From Chromatiales bacterium (GTDB lineage: Bacteria; Pseudomonadota; Gammaproteobacteria; Thiohalomonadales; Thiohalomonadaceae), in contig QKFD01000106.1 of NCBI GenBank assembly GCA_003251535.1, forward strand, positions 1-52,486: DNA of 52,486 bases, written 5' to 3'. Under the pieces are notes generated by a model. It was not told the DNA's origin. It worked only from the letters and a program-made list of their open reading frames with translations, and made no database searches. Below are positions 394-11,809 of this stretch, in pieces. The first letter of the stretch is position 1; each line of letters begins with the position of its first letter. A program made the position numbers and the translations under genes.

Positions 394-1095
394 ATGAGTC
401 AGCCTGGATTTTGGGCCGTAGTGCCGGCGGCCGGGGTCGGACGGCGGATGGGCGGCGATCTGCCCAAGCAGTATCTGCCGCTGGCCGGGCGGCGGGTGAT
501 CGAGCACACCCTGGCCCATCTCTGTCACCCCGCTATCCAAGGTATGGTGGTTGCCATCACGCCGGGCGATCCCTACTTTGCCGACATCACCCTGCCGGAG
601 CGGCCGCTATGGCGTGCCGATGGTGGGGCCGAACGCTGCCACTCGGTACTGAACGCCCTTGATTTCCTGGCCAGCCACGCCGCGCTAGGGGATTGGGTGT
701 TGGTGCATGATGCCGCTCGTCCCTGCCTACGGGCGGCGGACCTAGATCGGCTCATTACCGAATTGACGGACCACGCCGTGGGCGGCCTACTGGGGTTACC
801 GGTGGCCGATACGGTCAAACGGACCGATGGCCGCGGCGACGTGGTGGCCACCGTGGAGCGGGAGGGGCTGTGGCGCGCCTTGACGCCCCAGATGTTTCGT
901 CTGGGTACCCTGCGCCAGGCGCTGCACCAGGCGGTAACCGCCGGTCAGCTGGTGACCGACGAGTCGGCTGCCATTGAGCGCCTGGGGCTCGCCCCCAGGA
1001 TGGTGGAGGGACACGCCGATAACATTAAAATCACCCGCCCGCAGGATCTGGCGTTGGCGGAACTCTATCTGCGACAGCAACAGGAGTCCCTATGA
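394..1095 (+). CDS. ispD: 2-C-methyl-D-erythritol 4-phosphate cytidylyltransferase IspD
   Basis: A 233-residue IspD, third enzyme of the MEP pathway, which joins CTP and MEP to give CDP-methylerythritol. The N-terminal nucleotide-binding loop reads [17 protein letters not shown], with the Gly-rich loop and the Lys expected for CTP binding. LVHDAARPC lies near residue 105 and VADTVKRT near 135. Length and motifs match the single-domain enzyme. Its last four bases overlap ispF (ATGA), so the two are probably translationally coupled. The ribosome binding site before the ATG is weak. Confidence 0.97.
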
Positions 1096-1565
1096 GAGTT
1101 GGTCACGGTTTCGATGCCCATCGCTTCGTGCCCGATCGTCGGCTGGTGCTAGGTGGGGTGGAGATCGCCCACGAGTTCGGGCTTGCCGCCCACTCCGATG
1201 GGGATGTCGCCATCCACGCCCTCTGTGATGCCCTGCTGGGGGCGGCGGGTCTGGGGGATATCGGGCGCCACTTCCCCGATAGCAGTGCGGAGTTCAAAGA
1301 TATCGATAGCCGCCTGCTGCTCCGGCGGGTGGTGACCCAACTGCGCGGTCGCGGCTGGCGGATCGGCAATGTCGATATCACCCTCATTGCCCAGGCGCCA
1401 CGCCTGGCCCCCCATGTCAGCCTGATGCGGGCCCGTCTGGCCGCCGATCTGGAGGTGGCACTGGATGCCGTCAACGTCAAGGCGACCACCACCGAGCAGA
1501 TGGGCTTCACCGGGCGCCAGGAGGGGATCGCCGCCCACGCTGTCTGCCTGTTGCTGGCGCTGTGA
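1092..1565 (+). CDS. ispF: 2-C-methyl-D-erythritol 2,4-cyclodiphosphate synthase IspF
   Basis: A 157-residue IspF, fifth enzyme of the MEP pathway, which cyclises CDP-ME 2-phosphate with loss of CMP. The start [12 protein letters not shown] carries the metal ligands Asp and His of the D-x-H motif. [17 protein letters not shown] holds the third ligand and the substrate loop, and [13 protein letters not shown] lies near the C-terminus. Length is typical for a homotrimeric IspF. It overlaps ispD by four bases and truD by four bases (GTGA), so this is a tightly packed operon. Confidence 0.97.
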
Positions 1566-2638
1566 GCGAGGCGTTGCCCCCCGATGGCGAGCAGGCGCCC
1601 GCCCCGGCCTGGGAGGAGGAGGCGGCGCTGCCGTATGCCTACGGCCCGCCCCCACTGAGGGCGCGGCTGCGGGCGGTGGCGGAGGATTTCTGGGTCGATG
1701 AGCGCCCCCTCTATCTGCCTGAGGGGCGCGGTAATCAGCTCTGGCTCAGGATCGAGAAGCGAGAGACCAACACCGAGTGGGTGGCGCGCCGTCTGGCGGA
1801 GCTGGTGGGGGTAGCGGCCAAGGAGGTGGGCTACGCCGGCCTCAAGGATCGCCACGCGGTCACCCGGCAGTGGTTCAGTGTGCCGGTATCGGCCACCGAG
1901 ACGCCGCCCTGGGGGCAGTGGCAGGAGGAGTTCACGGTGCTGGAGGCGGTCCGTAACCCGACCCGCCTGCGGCGAGGCGGGCTGGCCGGCAACCAGTTTC
2001 GTATCCTGTTGCGCGCCCCCGTTGGCGATCTGACCACCTTCCAACGGCGGGTGGCGCTCATCGCCAGCCACGGCTTCCCCAACTACTTCGGTGAGCAGCG
2101 TTTTGGCCATCAGGGGGCCAACCTGGGCCGGGCCGAGGCACTCTTTCGCGGGGAGCTACGGGAGCGGGATCGCCACCTGCGGGGTCTCTATCTCTCCGCC
2201 GCCCGCTCCCAGCTGTTCAATCAGGTGCTGGCACGCCGGGTGGAGCAGGGGAGCTGGGGCCGGGCCTTGGCCGGCGAACACCTGCTGCTCGCCAGCAGCC
2301 ACACCCACTTCATCGGCCGCTCCGATGCCCCCCATGTGGTGGCCCAGCTGGACGCGGGCCAGATCCACCCGAGCGGTCCGCTCTGGGGTAGCGGTGCACC
2401 GCAGGCCAAGGGGGAGGCGCTGGCCCTGGAGCTGGCGGCGGTGGCGAATAGCGAGACGCTGCGCCGTGGTCTGGAGCGGGCCGGCCTGCAACAGGAGCGG
2501 CGGCCACTGCGGGTGATCCCGGAGGGGCTGCGGGCGGCTGAGCAGGAGGGCCACCTCCTGTTGGAGTTTTTCCTGCCCGCCGGCAGCTACGCCACGGCCC
2601 TGCTGCGGGAGCTGGTGGCGCCAGCGGCCGGCCCCTAG
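1562..2638 (+). CDS. truD: tRNA pseudouridine(13) synthase TruD
   Basis: A 358-residue TruD, which isomerises U13 of tRNA-Glu and similar tRNAs. The catalytic motif [14 protein letters not shown] is present with the nucleophile Asp at residue 96. [13 protein letters not shown] and NYFGEQRFG further on are also family hallmarks. The start is a GTG overlapping the ispF stop. The expected neighbours surE and pcm, which follow truD in many gammaproteobacteria, are absent. Instead a convergent c-di-GMP gene begins 6 bp away, which suggests a rearrangement junction here. Confidence 0.95.
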
Positions 2639-2644
2639 CGGAGG

Positions 2645-5257
2645 CTATTCGGTCACCGCCCGGGGGCGATCGATCTCCAGCAGCACCGTCTCCAGCGAGC
2701 GCGGCTGGTCGATCAGGTAGCCCTGGGCGAAATCGACCCCGATCTCCTTTAGTGCCCGTAGCTGCTCCTCGGTCTCCACAAACTCCGCCACCGTCTCGAT
2801 GCCGAGCACCCGGCCTACCCGCACGATCGCCTCCACAATGGTGCGATCCATCGGCTCCCGTGGCAGGCCGCGCACGAAGGCGCCATCGATCTTGAGATAG
2901 TCCACTGGCAGGTTCTTCAGATAGGCGAAGGAGGAGAGGCCTGAGCCGAAGTCGTCAAGGGCAAAGCGGCAGCCGATCCGTTTCAGGTGTTTGAGGAAGC
3001 GGCTGGCACGGGCCAGATTGCCGATGGCCGCGGTCTCTGTGATCTCAAAGCAGATGGCGGCGGGGGAGACACTGAACTCACTGAGCTGCCCCTCGATGAA
3101 GTCGAGCAGCGAGTCGTCGGAGAGCGAGGCGCCCGACAGGTTGATGGCAAAGACGCAGCTGCGGGCGGTGCGACGGACACTACAGTGGTGCGCGATCTCG
3201 GCAAAGGTGTGGCGCACCACCCAGCGATCGATACTCCCCATCAGGGAGTAGCGCTCCGCTGCCGGGATAAAGGCCCCCGGTGGGATAAGGGTGCCATCCT
3301 CCCCCTCCAGGCGGATCAACACCTCAAAGTGCAGTGGGCCGGTGTGGCGGCCGATGGGTAGGATGCTCTGGAGATGGAGGCGGAAACGGTCGCCCTGTAG
3401 GGCGCGATGGATGCGGCTGATCCAGTGCATCTGGCTGTGGCGCTGGGCCAGATCGGTGTCATCCGGCTGGTAGCTGTGGACCCGGTTGCGGCCGGTATCT
3501 TTGGCGGTGTAACAGGCGACATCGGCGGCGGAGAGCAGATCGCCGGTATCGGGACTGAAGCGATCCACCGCCACCATACCGATACTCACCCCCAACTCGA
3601 AGCTCTGCTCACCCCAGCTGAAGCGGTGACCGTTGATCGCCTGGCGCATCAACTCCGCCAGCTCCCGCGCCTTCCCTTCAGGGCAATCCATCAGCAGCAC
3701 CCCAAACTCGTCCCCCCCTAGGCGGGCGAGGCTATCGGAGTCGCGGATCTGGCTGGAGAGCACATAGGAGAGTTGGCGCAGTAGCTCATCGCCGGCGATG
3801 TGGCCGCAGGTGTCGTTCACCACCTTGAACTGGTCTAGATCGAGGTAGAGGAGGGCGTGCTGACCATTGCCATCGACCCGCAAGCGCTCCAAGGCGCCGG
3901 CCAGGCGCCGCTCAAACTCCTGGCGATTGATGAGGCCGGTGAGGGCGTCATGGGTTGACTGGTAGTTGAGCTGCTGTGCCAGTTGGCGCCGCTCGGTGAC
4001 ATCCCGAAACACCACCACCACCCCGACGATGGTGTCGTTGCGGTGGCGAATGGGGGCCGCGGAGTCCTCGATAAATAGCTCGCTGCCCCCACGGGCCAGC
4101 AGCAGTTGCGGTTCACTGCTGTAGATCCCGGCCCGCTCCCGCAGGCAGCGTCCCGCCGGCTCCTCCAGGGGCAGGCGGGACTCCGCCTCCACCACACGGT
4201 AGATCTCGCGCAGATGGTGGCCGCGGGCGGCGCTGGCGCTCCAACCCAGTAGCCGTTCGGCCGCTGGATTGAGGTACTCCACCACCCCATCGGCCCGGGT
4301 GGTGATCACCGCGTCGGCAATGGAGTGGAGGGTCACCTCGGCCCGCTCCTTCTCCGTCGCCAGCGCCTCCTCCGCCTGCTGGCGGGCAAAGATATCGGCC
4401 TGCAACGCCTCGTTAGCCCGCTTCAGCTCCGTGGTGCGCTCATGCACCTTCCGCTCTAGGGCGCTATTGGTGCGGGCCAGCAGGCGGGCGTGGAGCAGGT
4501 TCTGGAGGGCGAGGCGGCGGTCGAAGAAGGAGGCCAGCAGGGTGATGGCCACGATTAGCAGGGTGATGGTCGAGATCACCAGCGCCAAGGCGGTGGGGTT
4601 GAAACCGCCATCCAGATGGAGGGCGTTGCTGGTGGCGATGAACTGTGCGGCAGCGACATCGGCGTAGTGGGTGCCACTGATGCCGATCCCCATCGCCCCG
4701 GCACCCGCCGCCAACCGCCAGTCGAGGCCGCGGAAGGTGTGGCGGTGGAGGTGGTGGACAAAGCCGAGCGCCACCCAGGCGGCGGCGGTGGCGAGTAGAA
4801 AGGAGGCGATTGAGAGGGGCAGGTGGTAGTGGATGGTGGCAGGCAGATCCAGCGCCCCCATGCCGGTGTAGTGCATGAGACTGACCCCTCCCCCCATGGC
4901 CAGCGCGCCCACGCCGCGTCTTTGCCAGGTGAGGGGGCCCTGTCCCACCATCTGGAGGGCCAAGAGGGCGGCCAGCGTGGCCGGCAGGATGGAGATGAGG
5001 GTGAGGGGGATGTCATAGCTCACCGCCACCGGTATACGCAGGGCGAGCATCCCGATGAAGTGCATCGACCAGATGCCAAACCCCATGGTGGCCGCCCCGG
5101 CCAGCAACCAGAGCCGCCGGGCGCGGCCAGCACTGTCGCTCACCCGGCCGGCGAGGGCCAGGGCGGTGTAGGAGACCACCACGGCGATCACCACTGAGAG
5201 GAGGACCAGCTGCGGGTCGTAGTCGCTGGTGAGTAGGGTTCCGGGGGAGGGGGTCAT
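2645..5257 (-). CDS. MHYT-PAS-GGDEF-EAL membrane protein (c-di-GMP turnover)
   Basis: An 870-residue integral membrane signalling protein. The N-terminal MHYT domain (about 10-240) has the repeated motifs MHFIG (65), MHYTG (128) and THYAD (196) within membrane helices; this domain is proposed to sense O2, CO or NO through copper. Then come a coiled coil (about 255-305), a PAS domain (about 306-418), a GGDEF domain (about 428-593) and an EAL domain (about 628-858). GGDEF is intact (514-518), with an inhibitory-site RDSD five residues upstream. The EAL signature reads EVL (645-647), but DDFGSG, the Lys of YLKIDG, EFVE and AQGYL are kept. The start at 5257 is chosen because AGGAGT precedes it; an upstream start would add 12 residues. 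The gene is divergent from nifB and may be bifunctional. The link to nif is inference. Confidence 0.93.
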   Translation of the reverse strand: MTPSPGTLLTSDYDPQLVLLSVVIAVVVSYTALALAGRVSDSAGRARRLWLLAGAATMGFGIWSMHFIGMLALRIPVAVSYDIPLTLISILPATLAALLALQMVGQGPLTWQRRGVGALAMGGGVSLMHYTGMGALDLPATIHYHLPLSIASFLLATAAAWVALGFVHHLHRHTFRGLDWRLAAGAGAMGIGISGTHYADVAAAQFIATSNALHLDGGFNPTALALVISTITLLIVAITLLASFFDRRLALQNLLHARLLARTNSALERKVHERTTELKRANEALQADIFARQQAEEALATEKERAEVTLHSIADAVITTRADGVVEYLNPAAERLLGWSASAARGHHLREIYRVVEAESRLPLEEPAGRCLRERAGIYSSEPQLLLARGGSELFIEDSAAPIRHRNDTIVGVVVVFRDVTERRQLAQQLNYQSTHDALTGLINRQEFERRLAGALERLRVDGNGQHALLYLDLDQFKVVNDTCGHIAGDELLRQLSYVLSSQIRDSDSLARLGGDEFGVLLMDCPEGKARELAELMRQAINGHRFSWGEQSFELGVSIGMVAVDRFSPDTGDLLSAADVACYTAKDTGRNRVHSYQPDDTDLAQRHSQMHWISRIHRALQGDRFRLHLQSILPIGRHTGPLHFEVLIRLEGEDGTLIPPGAFIPAAERYSLMGSIDRWVVRHTFAEIAHHCSVRRTARSCVFAINLSGASLSDDSLLDFIEGQLSEFSVSPAAICFEITETAAIGNLARASRFLKHLKRIGCRFALDDFGSGLSSFAYLKNLPVDYLKIDGAFVRGLPREPMDRTIVEAIVRVGRVLGIETVAEFVETEEQLRALKEIGVDFAQGYLIDQPRSLETVLLEIDRPRAVTE

Positions 5258-5440
5258 GACAGCGACTCCTGGCGGCGGGGGCCTCCCTGGCAAGGATGGG
5301 CTAGTGCGGGGGTACGGCTGGCGGCCCTACGGTATGCCGCGGCGCTGGCCCTCCAGGTTACGGATGGAGGGTAGGGGCGGTGAGCACACGCCAGGAGGCA
5401 CAAGGGAGGTACCAATTTGTCAAAAAATGTCGGCCGCGGG

Positions 5441-5456
5441 CGTTGGATTTGCGACA
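5441..5456 (+). promoter_or_regulatory. Imperfect NifA upstream activator site before nifB
   Basis: CGT-N10-ACA, one mismatch from the NifA consensus TGT-N10-ACA, centred about 86 bp before the predicted nifB transcription start. I found no perfect site between 5258 and 5500. The position is right for NifA but the match is imperfect. Confidence 0.35.
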
Positions 5457-5489
5457 AGGAGATCAACCCCTTTTGTGATTGTGGTTTGA

Positions 5490-5502
5490 AATCAATATGT
5501 TA
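5490..5502 (+). promoter_or_regulatory. IHF binding site before nifB
   Basis: AATCAATATGTTA matches the IHF consensus WATCAANNNNTTR at every fixed position. It lies just upstream of the sigma-54 -24 box and downstream of the weak NifA site. IHF bends DNA so that NifA can touch sigma-54 polymerase at nif promoters. Its centre, near -38, is closer to the promoter than is usual. The IHF beta subunit gene lies in this window at 46344. Confidence 0.6.
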
Positions 5503-5506
5503 TGTT

Positions 5507-5523
5507 CTGGCACGGCCATTGCT
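5507..5523 (+). promoter_or_regulatory. Sigma-54 (RpoN) promoter of nifB
   Basis: CTGGCACGGCCATTGCT fits YTGGCACG-N4-TTGCW perfectly. The -24 GG (5509-5510) and -12 GC (5521-5522) are separated by exactly 10 bases. Predicted transcription start is near 5534, giving a leader of about 27 nt that contains GGGAGGAG before the nifB ATG. Confidence 0.9.
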
Positions 5524-5560
5524 CAATCGCTCTCGAACTGATCTTCGAGGGAGGAGTCCG

Positions 5561-7063
5561 ATGAGCAACGCCACCGTACTGGAAGGGGCTGCCAAGCCGT
5601 CCGGGTGCAGCAGCTCGGGTTGTGGCAGTAGTGCCGATCACCTGTCCCACCTCTCCGACGATATCCGTCAGAAGGTGCAGAACCACCCCTGCTATTCAGA
5701 GCAGGCCCACCACTACTTCGCCCGGATGCACGTGGCGGTGGCCCCCGCCTGTAATATCCAGTGCAACTACTGTAACCGTAAATATGACTGCGCCAATGAG
5801 TCCCGCCCCGGCGTGGTCTCGGAACTCCTCACGCCGGAACAGGCGGTGAAGAAGACCCTGGCAGTGGCGGCCGCCATTCCGCAGATGACGGTCCTCGGCA
5901 TCGCCGGCCCCGGCGATCCGTTGGCCAACCCCGAGCGCACCTTTGCCACCTTCCGTGAGCTGTCAGAGAAGGCGCCGGACATCAAGCTCTGCGTCTCCAC
6001 CAACGGCCTCAACCTGCCGGACTGCGTGGAGGAGCTGACCCGCCACAATATCGATCATGTCACCATCACCATCAACTGTGTTGACCCCGACATCGGCGCC
6101 AAGATCTACCCCTGGATCTTCTGGAACAACCGCCGTATCCGGGGCCGCAAGGCGGCGCAGATCCTGATTGACCAGCAGCAGAAGGGGCTGGAGATGCTCA
6201 CCGCCCGCGGCGTGCTGGTGAAGGTCAACTCGGTGATGATCCCTGGCGTCAACGACGAACACCTGAAAGAGGTGAGCAAGATCGTCAAGGCCAAGGGGGC
6301 GTTCCTCCACAACGTCATGCCGCTCATCGCCGAGGAGGAGCATGGCACCTACTACGGCATCATGCACCAGCGCAGCCCCTCTGCCGAGGAGTTGCAGTCA
6401 CTCCAAGACGCCTGTGCCGGCGATATGGCGATGATGCGCCACTGCCGCCAGTGCCGGGCCGATGCCGTGGGCCTGCTGGGCGAGGATCGCGGTGCTGAGT
6501 TTACCCTGGATAAGATTGAACAGATGGATATCGACTACGGTGCTGCCATGACGCAGCGGGCCAAGGTGCAGGAGGAGTTGACCCAACAGCTCAACGCCTC
6601 CCGCAAGAGCACTCCGCAGACGGCCTTTGTCTCCCTGGATAGCCTGCGGCGCAAGCCAACCGCACGGCCGGTGCTGATGGCGGTGGCCACTGCCGGTGGC
6701 AATCTGGTCAACCAGCACTTCGGCCACGCCAAAGAGTTCCTGGTCTACGAGGCCTCCAGCCAGGGGGTCCGCTTCATCGGCCACCGCAAGACCGATCTCT
6801 ACTGTACGGGGGCCAACGAGTGCGGTGATCGGGATACCACCCTGACCCGCTCCATTGAGGCGCTCACCGGTTGTGAGGTGGTGCTCTGCTCGAAGATCGG
6901 CTTTGAACCATGGGAGCAGCTGGAGGCCGCGGGCGTCATGCCCAACTCCGAGCACGCCATGGAGCCTATCGAAGAGGCGGTGGCAGCGGTCTACGCCGAG
7001 TTGGTGGCGGCCGGCAAGCTGGTGGATAACACGGTCGGCAGTGATGCCAAGGCCATTGCGTAA
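5561..7063 (+). CDS. nifB: Nitrogenase cofactor biosynthesis protein NifB
   Basis: A 500-residue radical SAM enzyme that builds NifB-co, the [8Fe-9S-C] core of FeMo-co, inserting the central carbide from SAM. The radical SAM cluster motif CNIQCNYC has Cys64, Cys68 and Cys71, preceded by the typical HPCYSEQAHHYFARMH. NRKYDCANESRPGV and GIAGPGDPLANP follow. A NifX/NafY-like domain occupies about 369-485 (HFGHAKEF, DLYCTG), as in the long proteobacterial NifB. The ATG at 5561 is chosen because GGGAGGAG lies just before it and the sigma-54 promoter would be inside any longer reading frame. It heads a nifB-fdxN-nifO-nifQ cluster. Confidence 0.98.
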   Translation: MSNATVLEGAAKPSGCSSSGCGSSADHLSHLSDDIRQKVQNHPCYSEQAHHYFARMHVAVAPACNIQCNYCNRKYDCANESRPGVVSELLTPEQAVKKTLAVAAAIPQMTVLGIAGPGDPLANPERTFATFRELSEKAPDIKLCVSTNGLNLPDCVEELTRHNIDHVTITINCVDPDIGAKIYPWIFWNNRRIRGRKAAQILIDQQQKGLEMLTARGVLVKVNSVMIPGVNDEHLKEVSKIVKAKGAFLHNVMPLIAEEEHGTYYGIMHQRSPSAEELQSLQDACAGDMAMMRHCRQCRADAVGLLGEDRGAEFTLDKIEQMDIDYGAAMTQRAKVQEELTQQLNASRKSTPQTAFVSLDSLRRKPTARPVLMAVATAGGNLVNQHFGHAKEFLVYEASSQGVRFIGHRKTDLYCTGANECGDRDTTLTRSIEALTGCEVVLCSKIGFEPWEQLEAAGVMPNSEHAMEPIEEAVAAVYAELVAAGKLVDNTVGSDAKAIA

Positions 7064-7076
7064 CGGGGGTTGAGCC

Positions 7077-7349
7077 ATGGCGTTCTCCATCAATCAACAC
7101 TGCGTTAACTGCTTTGCCTGTGAGTCGGTCTGCCCCAATCAGGCGATCCACGAGGCCAAGCCCCACTTCATCATCGAAGCGAAGCTCTGCACCGAGTGCA
7201 ACGGCGAGTACGACGAGCCGCAGTGCGCCAGCATCTGCCCCATCGAAGGGGCGATCCTCGACGCCAGCGGTGAACCCCTCAACCCGCTCGGCTCGCTCAC
7301 CGGCATCCCCGTGGAGCGGTTGCGGCAGCTGGCGGAAGCGCGGCCGTGA
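7077..7349 (+). CDS. fdxN: 2[4Fe-4S] ferredoxin, FdxN type, nif-associated
   Basis: A 90-residue ferredoxin 13 bp after nifB. Cluster ligands are Cys9, 12, 15 and 19-Pro, then Cys38, 41, 50 and 54-Pro. The second motif has the eight-residue insertion (C-x2-C-x8-C-x3-CP) typical of the nif/alvin ferredoxin class. In Azotobacter the equivalent gene next to nifB supports FeMo-co synthesis, so it probably donates electrons to NifB. The stop codon overlaps the GTG of a small ORF. Confidence 0.93.
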   Translation: MAFSINQHCVNCFACESVCPNQAIHEAKPHFIIEAKLCTECNGEYDEPQCASICPIEGAILDASGEPLNPLGSLTGIPVERLRQLAEARP

Positions 7350-7465
7350 TCGCCCGGCTGAAGGAGATCTGGCAGCGTGGTGCCACGCCGCCAGTGGGTA
7401 TCCCACACCGTTGTTGGCGTCGCCACAGCGCCCTGCTGCTGGCGGCCCGGGGGAGGGCGGCGTGA
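7346..7465 (+). CDS. Possible 39-residue coupled small protein
   Basis: A short reading frame that starts with GTG overlapping the fdxN stop (GTGA, 7346-7349). It ends with TGA overlapping the GTG start of the next gene (GTGA, 7462-7465). The predicted product is 39 residues, basic (about nine Arg/Lys), beginning MIARLKEIWQRGA and ending LLLAARGRAA. I recognise no domain. The exact junctions at both ends favour a coupled gene, or at least translational read-on that delivers ribosomes to the next start. GC-rich DNA produces open frames easily, so it may be non-functional. Confidence 0.4.
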   Translation: MIARLKEIWQRGATPPVGIPHRCWRRHSALLLAARGRAA

Positions 7466-7896
7466 AGGTCGAGTTCTTCGAAAAGCCGGGGTGTATCAAC
7501 AACACCCGGCAGAAGACCCTGCTGCGGGAGGCGGGCCACGAGGTTGTGGCCCACAACCTGCTCAGCGAGGCGTGGACCCCGGATCGGCTCCGCCCCTTCT
7601 TTGGCAGCCTGCCGGTGGCGGAGTGGTTTAACCGCACGGCGCCGCGGGTGAAGAGTGGTGAGGTGGTCCCGGAGCAGCTCGATGAGACGGCGGCGCTGGC
7701 CGCCATGGTGATCGACCCACTGCTCATCCGGCGGCCGCTGATGGCGGTGGCCGGTGAGTGTCGGGTGGGGTTTGATCCCCGGGCGGTCTCGGCCTGGATC
7801 GGCCTTACCCCCACTGCACTCCAGCCAACTCTGGATCTTGAGCGCTGTCCCAAGCCGGAGGTGCCCTGCGCATCGCCGGTCCCTGAGGAGGGCTGA
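7462..7896 (+). CDS. nifO: ArsC/Spx-like nitrogenase-associated protein (NifO type)
   Basis: A 144-residue protein of the ArsC/Spx thioredoxin-fold family. The N-terminal FFEKPGCINNTRQK places a Cys at residue 11 in the ArsC active-site loop, and IDPLLIRRPLM near residue 90 is the family cis-Pro/Arg region. The GTG start at 7462 has GGGAGGG just upstream and overlaps the small ORF stop. The order nifB-ferredoxin-ArsC-like-nifQ matches Azotobacter vinelandii, where this gene is nifO and affects molybdenum use relative to nitrate assimilation. The symbol rests on family and order; the biochemical role is not settled. Confidence 0.85.
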   Translation: MKVEFFEKPGCINNTRQKTLLREAGHEVVAHNLLSEAWTPDRLRPFFGSLPVAEWFNRTAPRVKSGEVVPEQLDETAALAAMVIDPLLIRRPLMAVAGECRVGFDPRAVSAWIGLTPTALQPTLDLERCPKPEVPCASPVPEEG

Positions 7897-7898
7897 AG

Positions 7899-8477
7899 AT
7901 GGTTGCCGTACTGAATCACAACGAGGCGCTGCTGCGGGATACTTACGACCAGCTCAGCTACTACTCGGTGGGTCTCGGTAACGCCGAGAGTCTGGTGCGG
8001 ATGTTCGCCTCCCAGGTGGCTGGCAACGGTGAGATGCCGGACCGCCTGGGCCTCTCTGCTGCGGCATTCGAGCGGTTTATCGGCTGGTACTTTCCCGGTC
8101 TGCCGCCGCAGGGGGTCCCCCGCGGGGGAGCCACCCCGGCGGGGGGGCGCGAAGAGGAGCGGCGCGAGCTGATCGCCCTCTTTCTCGCCAACGCGCCGCG
8201 GCTGACCGAGGATAGCGAGTGGATGGCCACCATCCTGGCCACCGGCTGCATGGGGGGCAACCACCTCTGGCAGGACCTGGGGCTCTGGTCGCGCAAGGAC
8301 GTCTCCGCCTTCGTCACCCGTAACTTCCCGCTACTGCGGGAGAAGAACGACCGCGACATGAAGTGGAAGAAGTTCTTCTACAAGCAGCTCTGCAACCAGG
8401 AGGGGATCTACACCTGTCGCGCCCCCTCCTGCGAGGTGTGCAACGACTATCCATCCTGTTTCGGCCCCGAGGCGTAG
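7899..8477 (+). CDS. nifQ: Molybdenum donor protein NifQ
   Basis: A 192-residue NifQ, an Fe-S protein that delivers molybdenum for FeMo-co assembly on NifEN. The C-terminal signature C-x4-C-x2-C-x5-C is complete (Cys173, 178, 181, 187), preceded by the conserved ATGCMGGNHLWQDLGL and MKWKKFFYKQLC. A strong GGAGG lies before the ATG, two bases after the nifO stop. It is the last gene of the tight nifB group. A small GC-rich hairpin (8497-8513) follows but lacks a U run, so transcription may continue into draG. Confidence 0.96.
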   Translation: MVAVLNHNEALLRDTYDQLSYYSVGLGNAESLVRMFASQVAGNGEMPDRLGLSAAAFERFIGWYFPGLPPQGVPRGGATPAGGREEERRELIALFLANAPRLTEDSEWMATILATGCMGGNHLWQDLGLWSRKDVSAFVTRNFPLLREKNDRDMKWKKFFYKQLCNQEGIYTCRAPSCEVCNDYPSCFGPEA

Positions 8478-8647
8478 TGCTGCCCAGGTCGGGATGGCCG
8501 CCTTGTGGGCGGCAGGGGTGAGCCGGCACAATGGGGCCGGCCGGGGAGGGGCCTGACCCATCTGCAACTGAGTGTCTCGCCGGATGCCGCCGCGCTGACA
8601 CCGACCCGCCCCCCCGCAATCCATAACGATAACGGCAGGGGGAGCGT

Positions 8648-9535
8648 GTGACGGATCTGGAGCAGCGGGCCGTAGCGGCCTATCTCGGGCTGGCTATTGG
8701 CGACGCCCTGGGGGCGACGGTGGAGTTTATGACGCCACGGGAGATCGTCGTCGCCTATGGCCGTCATGATCACATCCGGGGCGGTGGTTGGCTCCACTTG
8801 AAGCCAGGACAGGTGACCGATGACACCACCATGAGCCTGGCCTTGGGGGAGTCGATCCTGGCCCAGGGTGGGGTGGAGGCGCAGAGTGTCGCCCAGGCCT
8901 TCGACGGCTGGATGCGGAGCAAGCCGGTCGATATCGGCAACACCGTCCGGCGTGGGATCGTCGAGTTTCGGCGCACCGGCCGCACGGAGGTCCCCCTCAA
9001 CGAGTTTGACGGCGGTAACGGCGCCGCCATGCGGGTCCTGCCGGTGGCGCTGGCCACCTTTGGCGCCGATCCGGCCACCATCCGCCAGGCGGCCCTGGTC
9101 CAGGCCCGCATCACCCACCACAACCCCCTCTCCGACGCCGGTACCCTCTGTGTCAACGCCATGGTGCAGCTGGCCCTAAGCGGCACCGACCGCGGCGCCC
9201 TGCGTCAGGGGCCGGTGGCCGACCTACTGGCGGAACAGCCCCGCTTTGCCTACGAGGGCAAGCCGCAGGAGAACCCCACCGGCTTCATTGTCGATACCTT
9301 GCAAGCGGTCTTCCAAGGGCTGTTTGCCACCGACAGCTTCGAGGCGTGTCTGGTGGAGGTGGTCAATCGCGGTGGTGATGCCGATACCACCGGCGCCATC
9401 GCCGGGATGATCGCCGGGGCGCTCTATGGGCTCGATGCCATCCCAGAGGCGTGGCGCCTCGCCCTCGATGGCGCCGTCAGCGAGCGGGTGGTGACCCAGG
9501 CCCGGGCCCTTATCGCCCTGGCCGGACAGCACTGA
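8648..9535 (+). CDS. draG: ADP-ribosyl-[dinitrogen reductase] hydrolase DraG
   Basis: A 295-residue ADP-ribosylhydrolase of the DraG/ARH fold that removes ADP-ribose from the modified Arg of NifH, switching nitrogenase back on. Dinuclear metal ligands are visible: TDDTTMS near residue 59 and GGDADTTGAIAG near 240. GLAIGDALGATVEF near the N-terminus and NGAAMRVLPVAL near 120 are also conserved. The GTG start is preceded by GGGGGAG. Length equals the characterised enzyme. Its usual partner draT is not in this window. It is separated by 170 bp from nifQ, in which I found no sigma-54 element. Confidence 0.93.
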   Translation: MTDLEQRAVAAYLGLAIGDALGATVEFMTPREIVVAYGRHDHIRGGGWLHLKPGQVTDDTTMSLALGESILAQGGVEAQSVAQAFDGWMRSKPVDIGNTVRRGIVEFRRTGRTEVPLNEFDGGNGAAMRVLPVALATFGADPATIRQAALVQARITHHNPLSDAGTLCVNAMVQLALSGTDRGALRQGPVADLLAEQPRFAYEGKPQENPTGFIVDTLQAVFQGLFATDSFEACLVEVVNRGGDADTTGAIAGMIAGALYGLDAIPEAWRLALDGAVSERVVTQARALIALAGQH

Positions 9536-9546
9536 GCGGCCTTGAC

Positions 9547-10824
9547 TCAGGCCACGAGATCGCAGCAGAGCACTTGGCGACCGGCGGCGCGGGTGACGGT
9601 GCAGGAGAGGGTGACGCAGAGGCGGGCGTCGGTGATGGAGAAGTAGGGGCGCGAGGTGCGGATCCGGCCGGGGCTGGCGAGGGCGCGGCGGAAGTAGGGG
9701 CGGCGGCTCCAGTCAACCCCATCGGCCTGCTGGAGCGGCTTGAAGCGGGGGTCTTCAAGGGCGGCGCGGGCCCGGCCCGGCAGGTTATTGCCCCGTTGGA
9801 TACCGTTGTCATCTAGCTGGTAGCAGCGCAGTACGTCGGCCCGTCCCAGCAACCCGCTGCACGCCTGCGCCAGCGGTTGGCCCGCGGCATAGCGTAGTAG
9901 TGCCTGTTCAAAGGCGCGGTAGGCCCCATCCAGCAGGGTCTGATCGCGGCGGGCGAGCACCTCGGCATCCTCCCCGGCTACGGCGATGAGCTGCTCCAGG
10001 GCCGCGGTCTCGCAGCTCACCTGGGGGGCTGCCAATGGGTGGCCAAACAGCCAACCCTGGACCAGATCGACACCGGCATCGAGCACGGCCACCCCCTCCG
10101 CCTCACTCTCGACCCCCTCCGCCAGCACCAGGCTACCCGCCTCGTGGAGCAGCGCGACGAGGTTGTGCAGCATCCGCTGTGCCCGCCCATCACTCCCGGC
10201 CCGTACCACCAGGGCGCGGTCCAGTTTGACGATATCGGGCTGCAACTCCACCAGTCGGGAGAAGTTGGAGTGGCCGGCGCCAAAGTCGTCGATGGCCACC
10301 AGGCAGCCGAGATCGCGGTAGAAGGCCATCGCCTCGCGCAGCCCCCCTTCGCCACTCGCGCTCTCCAGCACCTCCACCACCACCCGCTCCGGCGGTAGCT
10401 GGCACTGTTGCAGGAGATCGTGGAAGAAGGGGCCTAAGCGGTGGCCACCTATGGCTACCTCTGGGGCGACATTGAGGAAGAGCCAGCCAGCGGCGGGGGC
10501 GCTGGCGGGGAGAAAGGTGGTGAAGTTGTGGACGTGGAGCCGGCGGCAGAGGCGATCTAGTGTGACCCCTTGGCCGGCACTACGGGCCGCCTCAAACAGC
10601 ATGGCGGGGGAGACCGGCTGGCCACCAGCGTCTGCGGCGCGGATCAGCCCCTCAAAACCCACTGCACGGCGGTGGAGCAGGCTGAAGATGGGTTGGAAGG
10701 CGGAGTGTAGTAGCAGCCCGGCATACTCAACCCCAAAGCCCATGGGTCCACTGGCGAACAGGGTACCGGGGTCCATGGCCAACCCCGGCACCTCTTCAAA
10801 GGGATAGTCGGCCAGATCAGCCAT
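9547..10824 (-). CDS. EAL-domain c-di-GMP phosphodiesterase with C-terminal sensor-like region
   Basis: A 425-residue soluble protein. The EAL domain (about 35-285) starts with EGL in place of EAL. It keeps the other catalytic positions: the Asn of LNVAP, EVLES, DDFGAGHSNF, the Lys of VKLDR, AEGVE and the Gln of VQGWLFG. It therefore probably hydrolyses c-di-GMP. The last 130 residues (around PYFRRAL and RPYFSITDARLCVTLS) resemble PDC/Cache-type ligand-binding regions of other c-di-GMP proteins. The ATG overlaps the upstream SIR2-like gene by 8 bp, so the two form one operon behind a sigma-54/NifA control region. It converges with draG 11 bp apart. Confidence 0.9.
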   Translation of the reverse strand: MADLADYPFEEVPGLAMDPGTLFASGPMGFGVEYAGLLLHSAFQPIFSLLHRRAVGFEGLIRAADAGGQPVSPAMLFEAARSAGQGVTLDRLCRRLHVHNFTTFLPASAPAAGWLFLNVAPEVAIGGHRLGPFFHDLLQQCQLPPERVVVEVLESASGEGGLREAMAFYRDLGCLVAIDDFGAGHSNFSRLVELQPDIVKLDRALVVRAGSDGRAQRMLHNLVALLHEAGSLVLAEGVESEAEGVAVLDAGVDLVQGWLFGHPLAAPQVSCETAALEQLIAVAGEDAEVLARRDQTLLDGAYRAFEQALLRYAAGQPLAQACSGLLGRADVLRCYQLDDNGIQRGNNLPGRARAALEDPRFKPLQQADGVDWSRRPYFRRALASPGRIRTSRPYFSITDARLCVTLSCTVTRAAGRQVLCCDLVA

Positions 10825-11680
10825 TGGCCACGCGGGCCGGCGACGCCAGCCCGAGTAGCTCCTCGTAATCGGCGTCGATGAGGGTGAGCTGATGCTGATC
10901 GCAGAAGCGCATCTCGTTCTTTTTGGGGGCCGGCAGGAAGGCCCAGCCGCCGGGTTCGGCGTGGCCGTAGAGCACCTCGTGCATCACCATCCGCTCGGTG
11001 TCGCGGGTGAGTGGCAGGCCGAGGAAGAGGTAGCGTTTGCCCTTGCGCAGCTGCTTGAGGAAGCTGGGGATGGCGAAGCCGCCCATCAGCTCGGTCATGT
11101 AGTCCACAAAATCGGCATCGGAGGCGACGTAGTTGGGCTCCGGGCTGGGGGTGCCGAGGGGTTTGAAGATCACCGGCAGCTCGGGGTTGGCCTCCTCTTG
11201 GGTGATGGTGCGGTAGGCGCCGGCCTCAAACTGATAGATCTTGAAACGGTAGTCGGTGCCGCCAATACGGGAGAGCCCTACCACTAGGGTGTGGGGGGTG
11301 TCGGCATAGGTGGCCTGGAGCTGGGTGTCGCGGTTGAGATCGATGACATAGCGCGGTTTGAAACCGGCCAGCCAGTCATGCAGCGGGGCGCGGGTCCATT
11401 CGGTCTGGCCATAGACCTCGGTGAGGGTGCGATTGACGAAGTTGCGCCCCTTCTTGAGTTCAAAGTGCATCGCCGCCCGTGAGTACTCGTAGGCCACCTT
11501 GGGGGGGAGTGGCCGGCCACCGGTGAGGGTGGCGATGAGGCTGTCGCCATCGGCCGGCATCGGCCGACCATCGCTGGCAGCCACCGCGCCGCGCAGGGCG
11601 TAGGGACCGAGTACAGGTACAACACTACCCTCGCTCAGGGCATGGGTGATCTCTTCGATGAGGCGGGTGTCCAGGGCCAT
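10817..11680 (-). CDS. SIR2-like protein, nif-linked, probably catalytically altered
   Basis: A 287-residue protein that I align by eye to the SIR2_2 group of NAD-binding proteins. VVPVLGPYAL near residue 20 sits where the nucleotide loop GAGxS is expected. VIDLNRDTQL corresponds to the TNxD region, FKPLGTP to KLHGs, and RYLFLGLPLTRDTERM to the C-terminal GySlsD motif. The catalytic His of KLHG appears to be Leu and the Gly-rich loop is degenerate, so NAD cleavage is doubtful. The ATG at 11680 has AGGAG upstream; a longer frame would run through the sigma-54 promoter. First gene of the operon with the EAL protein. Function unknown; context says nitrogen fixation. Confidence 0.72.
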   Translation of the reverse strand: MALDTRLIEEITHALSEGSVVPVLGPYALRGAVAASDGRPMPADGDSLIATLTGGRPLPPKVAYEYSRAAMHFELKKGRNFVNRTLTEVYGQTEWTRAPLHDWLAGFKPRYVIDLNRDTQLQATYADTPHTLVVGLSRIGGTDYRFKIYQFEAGAYRTITQEEANPELPVIFKPLGTPSPEPNYVASDADFVDYMTELMGGFAIPSFLKQLRKGKRYLFLGLPLTRDTERMVMHEVLYGHAEPGGWAFLPAPKKNEMRFCDQHQLTLIDADYEELLGLASPARVANG

Positions 11681-11714: not shown

Positions 11715-11731
11715 TGCAAGGACCTTACCAA
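11715..11731 (-). promoter_or_regulatory. Sigma-54 promoter of the SIR2-like/EAL operon
   Basis: On the minus strand TTGGTAAGGTCCTTGCA fits YTGGCACG-N4-TTGCW with two mismatches, both in the CAC part. The invariant GG (-24) and GC (-12) are exactly 10 bases apart. Predicted start of transcription is near 11704, leaving a leader of about 24 nt with AGGAG before the ATG at 11680. Confidence 0.8.
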
Positions 11732-11793: not shown

Positions 11794-11809
11794 TGTCGGG
11801 AACACGACA
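11794..11809 (-). promoter_or_regulatory. NifA upstream activator site (perfect TGT-N10-ACA)
   Basis: TGTCGGGAACACGACA is an exact TGT-N10-ACA site, centred about 97 bp upstream of the predicted start of the SIR2-like/EAL operon. This is within the usual distance for NifA sites. It also lies about 75 bp upstream of the ndh -10 box, but the sigma-54 element points only to the minus strand. Confidence 0.75.

Follow-up and report, generated by a model that had tools for sequence, protein, structure and literature searches.

The window analysed here, a 52,486-nt stretch from a Chromatiales bacterium, carries a gene for a SIR2-fold protein (10817-11680, minus strand) that we regard, with a probability of about two in three, as a NifA-controlled, conditional accessory of nitrogenase acting by binding and not by catalysis. 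The protein adds a member to a nif-associated family that is known but uncharacterised, and of which other members are already in print. Its gene goes with nitrogen fixation at large, not with the nearby draG in particular.

Fold and active-site residues

The gene starts with the ATG at 11680 and encodes 287 amino acids plus a stop codon. A frameshift or misread site can be ruled out, as the open frame aligns over its full length with clade I of the family (described below) at 48-60% identity. The SIR2-like identity given in the preliminary description is supported by a match to SIR2_2 (Pfam PF13289; residues 156-267, E 1.2e-7, 32.4 bits, cut-off 24.5), a domain also matched by 38 of 39 family rows (E <= 1), and by the predicted fold. 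The AlphaFold2 model, for which the window protein was aligned with 30 relatives (31 sequences), reached a mean pLDDT of 91.4 and a pTM of 0.90. Foldseek returned 87 matches to this model at E <= 0.001, including DSR2 (E 1.5e-8). When VIA-align 2 was applied to Foldseek's own matches, the best Z was 18.7, for KomC (rmsd 3.4 A over 243 residues, nearly the whole chain of the window protein), with best values of 18.6 for ThsA, 18.2 for DSR2 and 12 to 13 for classical Sir2 proteins. The profile search and structure prediction earlier proposed as checks thus led to a SIR2 fold and excluded an unrelated one.

In profile searches, the joint profile of the two family clades found KomC among the PDB chains (E 3.2e-6), and the clade II profile also found SIR2 chains. 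The window protein alone gave only chance matches in the PDB, and a search with the clade I profile by itself turned up no SIR2 chain there (one galectin at E 1.9), so that the tie of clade I to solved SIR2 proteins rests on Pfam, clade II and the fold. Among the NCBIfam models, the window protein had no match and the 39 rows gave single-row weak matches only. No PADLOC defence family matched the window protein up to E 1; the ThsA and LmuA models of PADLOC matched 15 and 11 of the 39 rows, respectively (E <= 1). DRAT (PF07357) was absent among the Pfam matches of the window protein up to E 1.

The likeness to defence proteins goes together with clear differences. The KomC SIR2 NADase (PDB 9v0g, 9xvc) shares the fold but has the His (an H146N mutant appears in a PDB title) and a defence context, whereas the window protein has Leu and a nif context. 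The SIR2 domains of ThsA and DSR2 likewise share the fold, but both are larger, multi-domain defence NADases. ThsA and DSR2 carry the Asn/His site, and a DSR2 H171A mutant appears in PDB titles. Classical deacetylases have a Cys4 zinc site; the window protein has none, because it contains a single Cys.

The catalytic His of the HG motif had been described as apparently replaced by Leu, and the alignment agrees: the position is Leu175, in the local segment F-K-P-L-G-T-P. The changed glycine loop is likewise present at residues 22-29 (P-V-L-G-P-Y-A-L; P-Y-L-G-P-G-x-L in most relatives), where the GAGxS nucleotide loop is replaced by G25-P-Y27-A-L29 in the window protein and mostly by GPGxL in the family. 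Aligning the family therefore recovers the loop in most relatives, whereas in the window protein both loop and His stay lost, and this second possible refutation of the preliminary description falls away. The Asn of TQNID/TTNYD, which that description did not mention, is retained as N116-R-D118, aligned via the family profile to the TTNYD of KomC. Across the 39-row alignment, position 175 is Met in 20 rows, Leu in nine, His in six and another residue in four, position 116 is Asn in 22 and Trp in 17, and position 27 is Gly in 31 and Tyr in the window protein alone.

The alignment was extended to 50 rows (39 full proteins and 11 best-aligned stretches). Near-copies (L061/L074/L075, L015/L017 and L026/L028) are each counted separately in it; G392, G514 and short fragments from the phylum search lie outside it, G013 is already represented by L031, and the window itself by L073. 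The His is present in nine of the 50 rows and missing in 41, G27 is present in 38, and in 43 a Leu takes the place of the GAGxS Ser. Both catalytic residues, Asn and His, occur together in one row (L004, from Aquisphaera insulae), which could be an active enzyme. Such changes from polar to other residues at aligned active-site positions (Ser to Leu; His to Met, Leu, Tyr or Trp; Asn to Trp in one clade) argue against an ordinary NAD site.

The family tree has two clades, clade I with 26 rows including the window protein and clade II with 24. Clade I keeps the Asn and has Met or Leu in place of the His, L004 excepted; clade II has Trp in place of the Asn, and the His in eight of its 24 rows. Compared as profiles, the clades match along their length (E 3.3e-36, about 25% identical), and the order of the residue changes is not fixed by the tree because a very long branch (3.2 plus 4.0 changes per column) separates them. 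Fifteen residues are identical across all 50 rows of both clades, among them E74, R79, P174, D188, D190, R212, R230 and E256. This invariance shows that a function with no need of the catalytic pair is under constraint. The L004 copy (8004-8852) stands inside the nif cluster of a planctomycete; a clade I copy in such a place suggests lateral transfer of the cluster.

Locus and promoter

The end of the SIR2 gene overlaps by 8 nt the start of a gene for an EAL-domain protein (9547-10824, minus strand). From this overlap, the two genes probably belong to the same operon, and the EAL gene may be transcribed from the NifA-type promoter of the SIR2 gene. Convergent with the pair is draG (8648-9535, plus strand; TIGR02662, 411.7 bits against a cut-off of 337), so that the SIR2 gene is indeed near draG, as first described, with one EAL gene between them. 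Further genes on the plus strand are nifQ (7899-8477; PF04891, 178.7 bits), a gene for a NifO/ArsC-like protein (7465-7896, start not fixed), a relative of which in locus L042 has an ArsC match only below the cut-off of that model, a gene for a YfhL-like 4Fe-4S ferredoxin (7077-7349; NF033683, 78.3 bits, below the cut-off of 86) and nifB (5561-7063; TIGR01290, 655.7 bits), the start of which was placed by eye at the ATG at 5561 in an open reading frame listed from 5417. Just upstream of nifB and on the opposite strand lies a large open reading frame (2645-5293) that resembles, by eye, a GGDEF-EAL signalling protein.

The window, which is contig C2 of its genome, holds no draT, as the preliminary description had stated. 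The full-genome search that it proposed yielded a sole match on another contig (C81:33-788, 348 bits). That description had also thought an alternative ADP-ribosyltransferase unlikely; this candidate is now ruled out by the SIR2 fold together with the true draT elsewhere in the genome. On contig C81 (L060, G000:C81), genes that match JetA, JetB and JetC of the Wadjet defence system adjoin draT (829-7017).

A sigma-54-type -24/-12 promoter, TGGTAAGGTCCTTGCA (11715-11730, minus strand), is found about 50 nt upstream of the SIR2 ATG, and another precedes nifB (5508-5523, plus strand). These two are the matches to the strict -24/-12 pattern in the window, against 0.12 expected. The pattern of the NifA-type upstream activator site, TGT-N10-ACA, is matched at 11794-11809. 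In the window as a whole this pattern alone occurs at chance (5 found, 4.46 expected), but the site gains weight because such sites recur upstream of clade I relatives: they are present in 18 of the 20 clade I loci with 450 nt of upstream sequence and in none of nine clade II loci, with 0.14 expected per 480-nt stretch. With nifH in a divergent position at many loci, some of them may serve that gene. Upstream matches to the strict -24/-12 pattern are found in only one of these 20 other clade I loci and to a relaxed pattern in two, and a -24/-12-like element scoring at least 12 of 15 at -42 to -66 is found in 15 of the 20 and in none of the nine clade II loci. The individual scores of these elements are weak (background fraction 0.003 to 0.18), and it is their clustered positions that matter. 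From the sequence patterns we infer that the window copy is probably under NifA/sigma-54 control.

Occurrence and gene neighbourhoods

Occurrence was followed in a class sample of 369 genomes, where relatives were defined by E <= 1e-5 with one query protein, so that remote members may be missed. A relative was found in 28 genomes, nifB over the cut-off in 32, DraG over the cut-off in 16 and DraT in 19. The counts of nifB and DraG depend on the threshold: at E <= 0.001 they would be 68 and 71 of 369, and the counts over the cut-off (32 and 16) were used. Of the 28 genomes with a relative, 27 have nifB; conversely, of the 32 genomes with nifB, 27 have a relative and five have none (Fisher p 8e-35). 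In the lone genome with a relative but no nifB (G268), the copy is at a contig edge, and the genus-mate G157 has nifB. Similarly, in a phylum sample of 254 genomes, all 15 with a member are among the 39 with nifB over the cut-off, and the other 24 have no member. The SIR2 gene is nearly confined to genomes with nifB and is far from universal among them.

Over all 369 genomes, DraT is present in 13 of the 28 with a relative versus 6 of the 341 without (p 3e-12) and DraG in 12 of 28 versus 4 of 341, as is expected of two nif-linked genes. Within the 32 nifB genomes, where the group without a relative has only five members, neither is enriched with the relative (DraT 13 of 27 versus 4 of 5, p 0.34; DraG 12 of 27 versus 3 of 5, p 0.65). 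Neither DraT nor DraG is over the cut-off in 13 of the 28 genomes with a relative; in G343, a DraG fragment at a contig end falls below it. The specific tie to DraG supposed in the preliminary description thus finds no support, since the relatives track nifB and show no association with DraG or DraT within the nifB genomes.

Besides the window, 21 clade I loci were compared (L002-L004 and the wide loci L033-L050). A divergent nifH is found within about 3.5 kb in 14 of them, with contig ends limiting the view in several others. In seven of the ten clade I genomes of the class sample with DraT (G032, G084, G125, G184, G318, G343 and G350, but not G000, G240 or G249), draT lies upstream of the SIR2 gene on the same strand within 2.5 kb, and draG is near the SIR2 gene in several clade I loci. 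The SIR2 gene is also found beside nifH where DraT is absent (L033, L035, L036, L039, L041 and L043). In eight of the 21 loci (L002, L036, L037, L038, L039, L041, L044 and L046), the SIR2 gene is followed within 1.2 kb by a hemerythrin-like gene in the same orientation (one confirmed by Pfam), possibly an oxygen-related partner. An EAL gene follows the SIR2 gene also in G125, from the same family as the window genome, which hints that c-di-GMP turnover is tied to nitrogen fixation in the host family. In clade II, the SIR2 gene comes immediately after nifT within the nif operons of six rhizobial plasmid loci, five of which show the order nifB-fdx-...-nifZ-nifT-SIR2, and the gene that comes next in eight clade II plasmid loci is neither a hemerythrin nor an EAL gene.

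Proposed role in nitrogen fixation

The class search and the clade profiles establish that the window protein and the SIR2 proteins in nif clusters of other diazotrophs are homologues, and annotated nif clusters name the family members 'SIR2 family'. Several papers describe such proteins, of which Msi351, Rcc03262 and ZMO1821 were placed in the family by gene order and annotation, not by sequence. In Mesorhizobium loti R7A, the sirtuin-like Msi351 is encoded by the last gene of nifB-fdxN-nifZ-fixU-msi351 under a NifA/RpoN promoter, an msi351::lacZ mutant is fully effective in symbiosis, and several rhizobia have no such gene (PMC3538637). Msi351 is sirtuin-like, as is the window protein. It would belong to clade II (Asn to Trp), as judged by the Mesorhizobium relative in our alignment (L065, order nifA-nifB-fdx-nifZ-nifT-SIR2), whereas the window protein belongs to clade I, is about 25% identical and has its own promoter. 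In Rhodobacter capsulatus, the SIR2-family protein Rcc03262 was detected in the wild type but not in a nifA double mutant (PMC6925177). ZMO1821 of Zymomonas mobilis, a predicted deacetylase, rises under nitrogen fixation, and nitrogenase proteins and NifA are reported as acetylated in that organism (PMC8600466); its gene lies in the nif cluster of an organism described as having no identified draT or draG (PMC8594446). A figure legend places a SIR2-like protein after nifT in Rhodovulum (PMC9412634). Rcc03262 and ZMO1821 are, like the window protein, SIR2-family members of nif clusters; the former is NifA-dependent and the latter up under nitrogen fixation, and the deacetylase function is, in print, a prediction only. 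Among the matches listed from the open-licence literature, no paper reports the loss of the catalytic pair in a nif-linked SIR2 family; in the Azoarcus Tn-seq paper (PMC9769520), the matched text for nif and dra terms is one line of the reference list only. A SIR2 mention in PMC11227200 was not counted as referring to this gene.

We propose that the protein is a conserved accessory of proteobacterial nif regulons. Its gene would be transcribed by sigma-54 RNA polymerase with NifA, so that it would be made together with nitrogenase. The protein shares its SIR2 fold with NAD-cleaving proteins of bacterial defence, but its active site is broken: N116 is kept, Leu175 replaces the His, Tyr27 the second Gly of the loop and Leu29 the Ser of GAGxS. 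In FAM118A/B, which are of the same fold class, mutants of the Asn or the His lose the raised NAD processing (PMC12700824). Because of this, and because the Asn-His pair occurs in one of 50 rows, the window protein most likely neither cleaves NAD nor deacylates proteins. It would instead act by binding, presumably as a scaffold or partner of the machinery that assembles or protects nitrogenase, and may be useful under some conditions only, as the msi351 mutant without phenotype suggests. That the window protein might be catalytically active even without the pair is an alternative reading.

Several other roles were weighed. Along the lines of the preliminary description, the protein could bind NAD or ADP-ribose, report on redox conditions and so tune the control of nitrogenase through DraT or DraG, but this seems unlikely. 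DraT itself uses NAD, and the best evidence for such a sensor is the draT upstream in seven of ten clade I genomes with DraT, to which the nearby draG of several loci and the co-occurrence with DraT over all 369 genomes may be added. The 13 of 28 genomes with neither protein, the absence of an association within nifB genomes (a small comparison group), the copies beside nifH without DraT, the six rhizobial copies directly after nifT and ZMO1821 in an organism with no identified draT or draG (PMC8594446) all speak against it; where draT does precede the SIR2 gene, a link to the Dra switch is possible, at a lower probability. A helper role in a small operon with the next gene, as an oxygen or c-di-GMP module outside nitrogenase assembly, would suit the hemerythrin-like followers in eight of 21 clade I loci, the EAL follower in G125 and the 8-nt overlap here, but is distinctly improbable, as the next gene varies and is of neither kind in the eight clade II plasmid loci.

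Catalytic roles fare worse still. We give very little weight to an active lysine deacylase with nitrogenase or NifA as its substrate, a role proposed for ZMO1821. In its favour are the predicted SIR2 family of ZMO1821, its rise under nitrogen fixation and the reported acetylation of nitrogenase proteins and NifA (PMC8600466). Against it, 41 of 50 rows lack the catalytic His, the nearest folds are defence NAD hydrolases (best Z 18.2 to 18.7) with classical Sir2 proteins lower, and the window protein has no Cys4 zinc site. Equally slight are the chances of an NADase-type guard of diazotrophs, for which nif clusters would have captured a protein of defence or abortive function. Its closest solved relatives (KomC, ThsA and DSR2) and the ThsA or LmuA matches of some family rows would fit such a guard, but the window protein has no PADLOC match, its residues are broken, its promoter is of nif type and the family occurs almost exclusively with nifB. 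The binding accessory that we prefer has its own difficulties: the sole published mutant, msi351::lacZ, was fully effective and some rhizobia have no such gene (PMC3538637), the SIR2 gene is missing from 5 of 32 class and 24 of 39 phylum nifB genomes, the strict -24/-12 pattern is found in one of 20 other clade I loci only, and L004, with both Asn and His, could be active.

A wider reading, which we offer tentatively and hold to be more doubtful than not, is that the nif-linked SIR2 proteins form a pseudo-sirtuin family. Defence NAD-cleaving domains would have been recruited by diazotrophs and their catalytic pair broken differently in the two clades (the His lost in one; the Asn, and partly the His too, in the other), with the invariant residues kept to bind a partner in nitrogenase assembly or a nucleotide signalling the energy state during nitrogen fixation. 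Because one family member was considered a probable deacetylase, the role of acetylation in nitrogen fixation came under study (PMC8600466). If the pair is broken family-wide, there is less ground for that deacetylase inference, and nif regulons contain a widespread accessory protein with no assigned function; this family-wide break is the part of interest to specialists.
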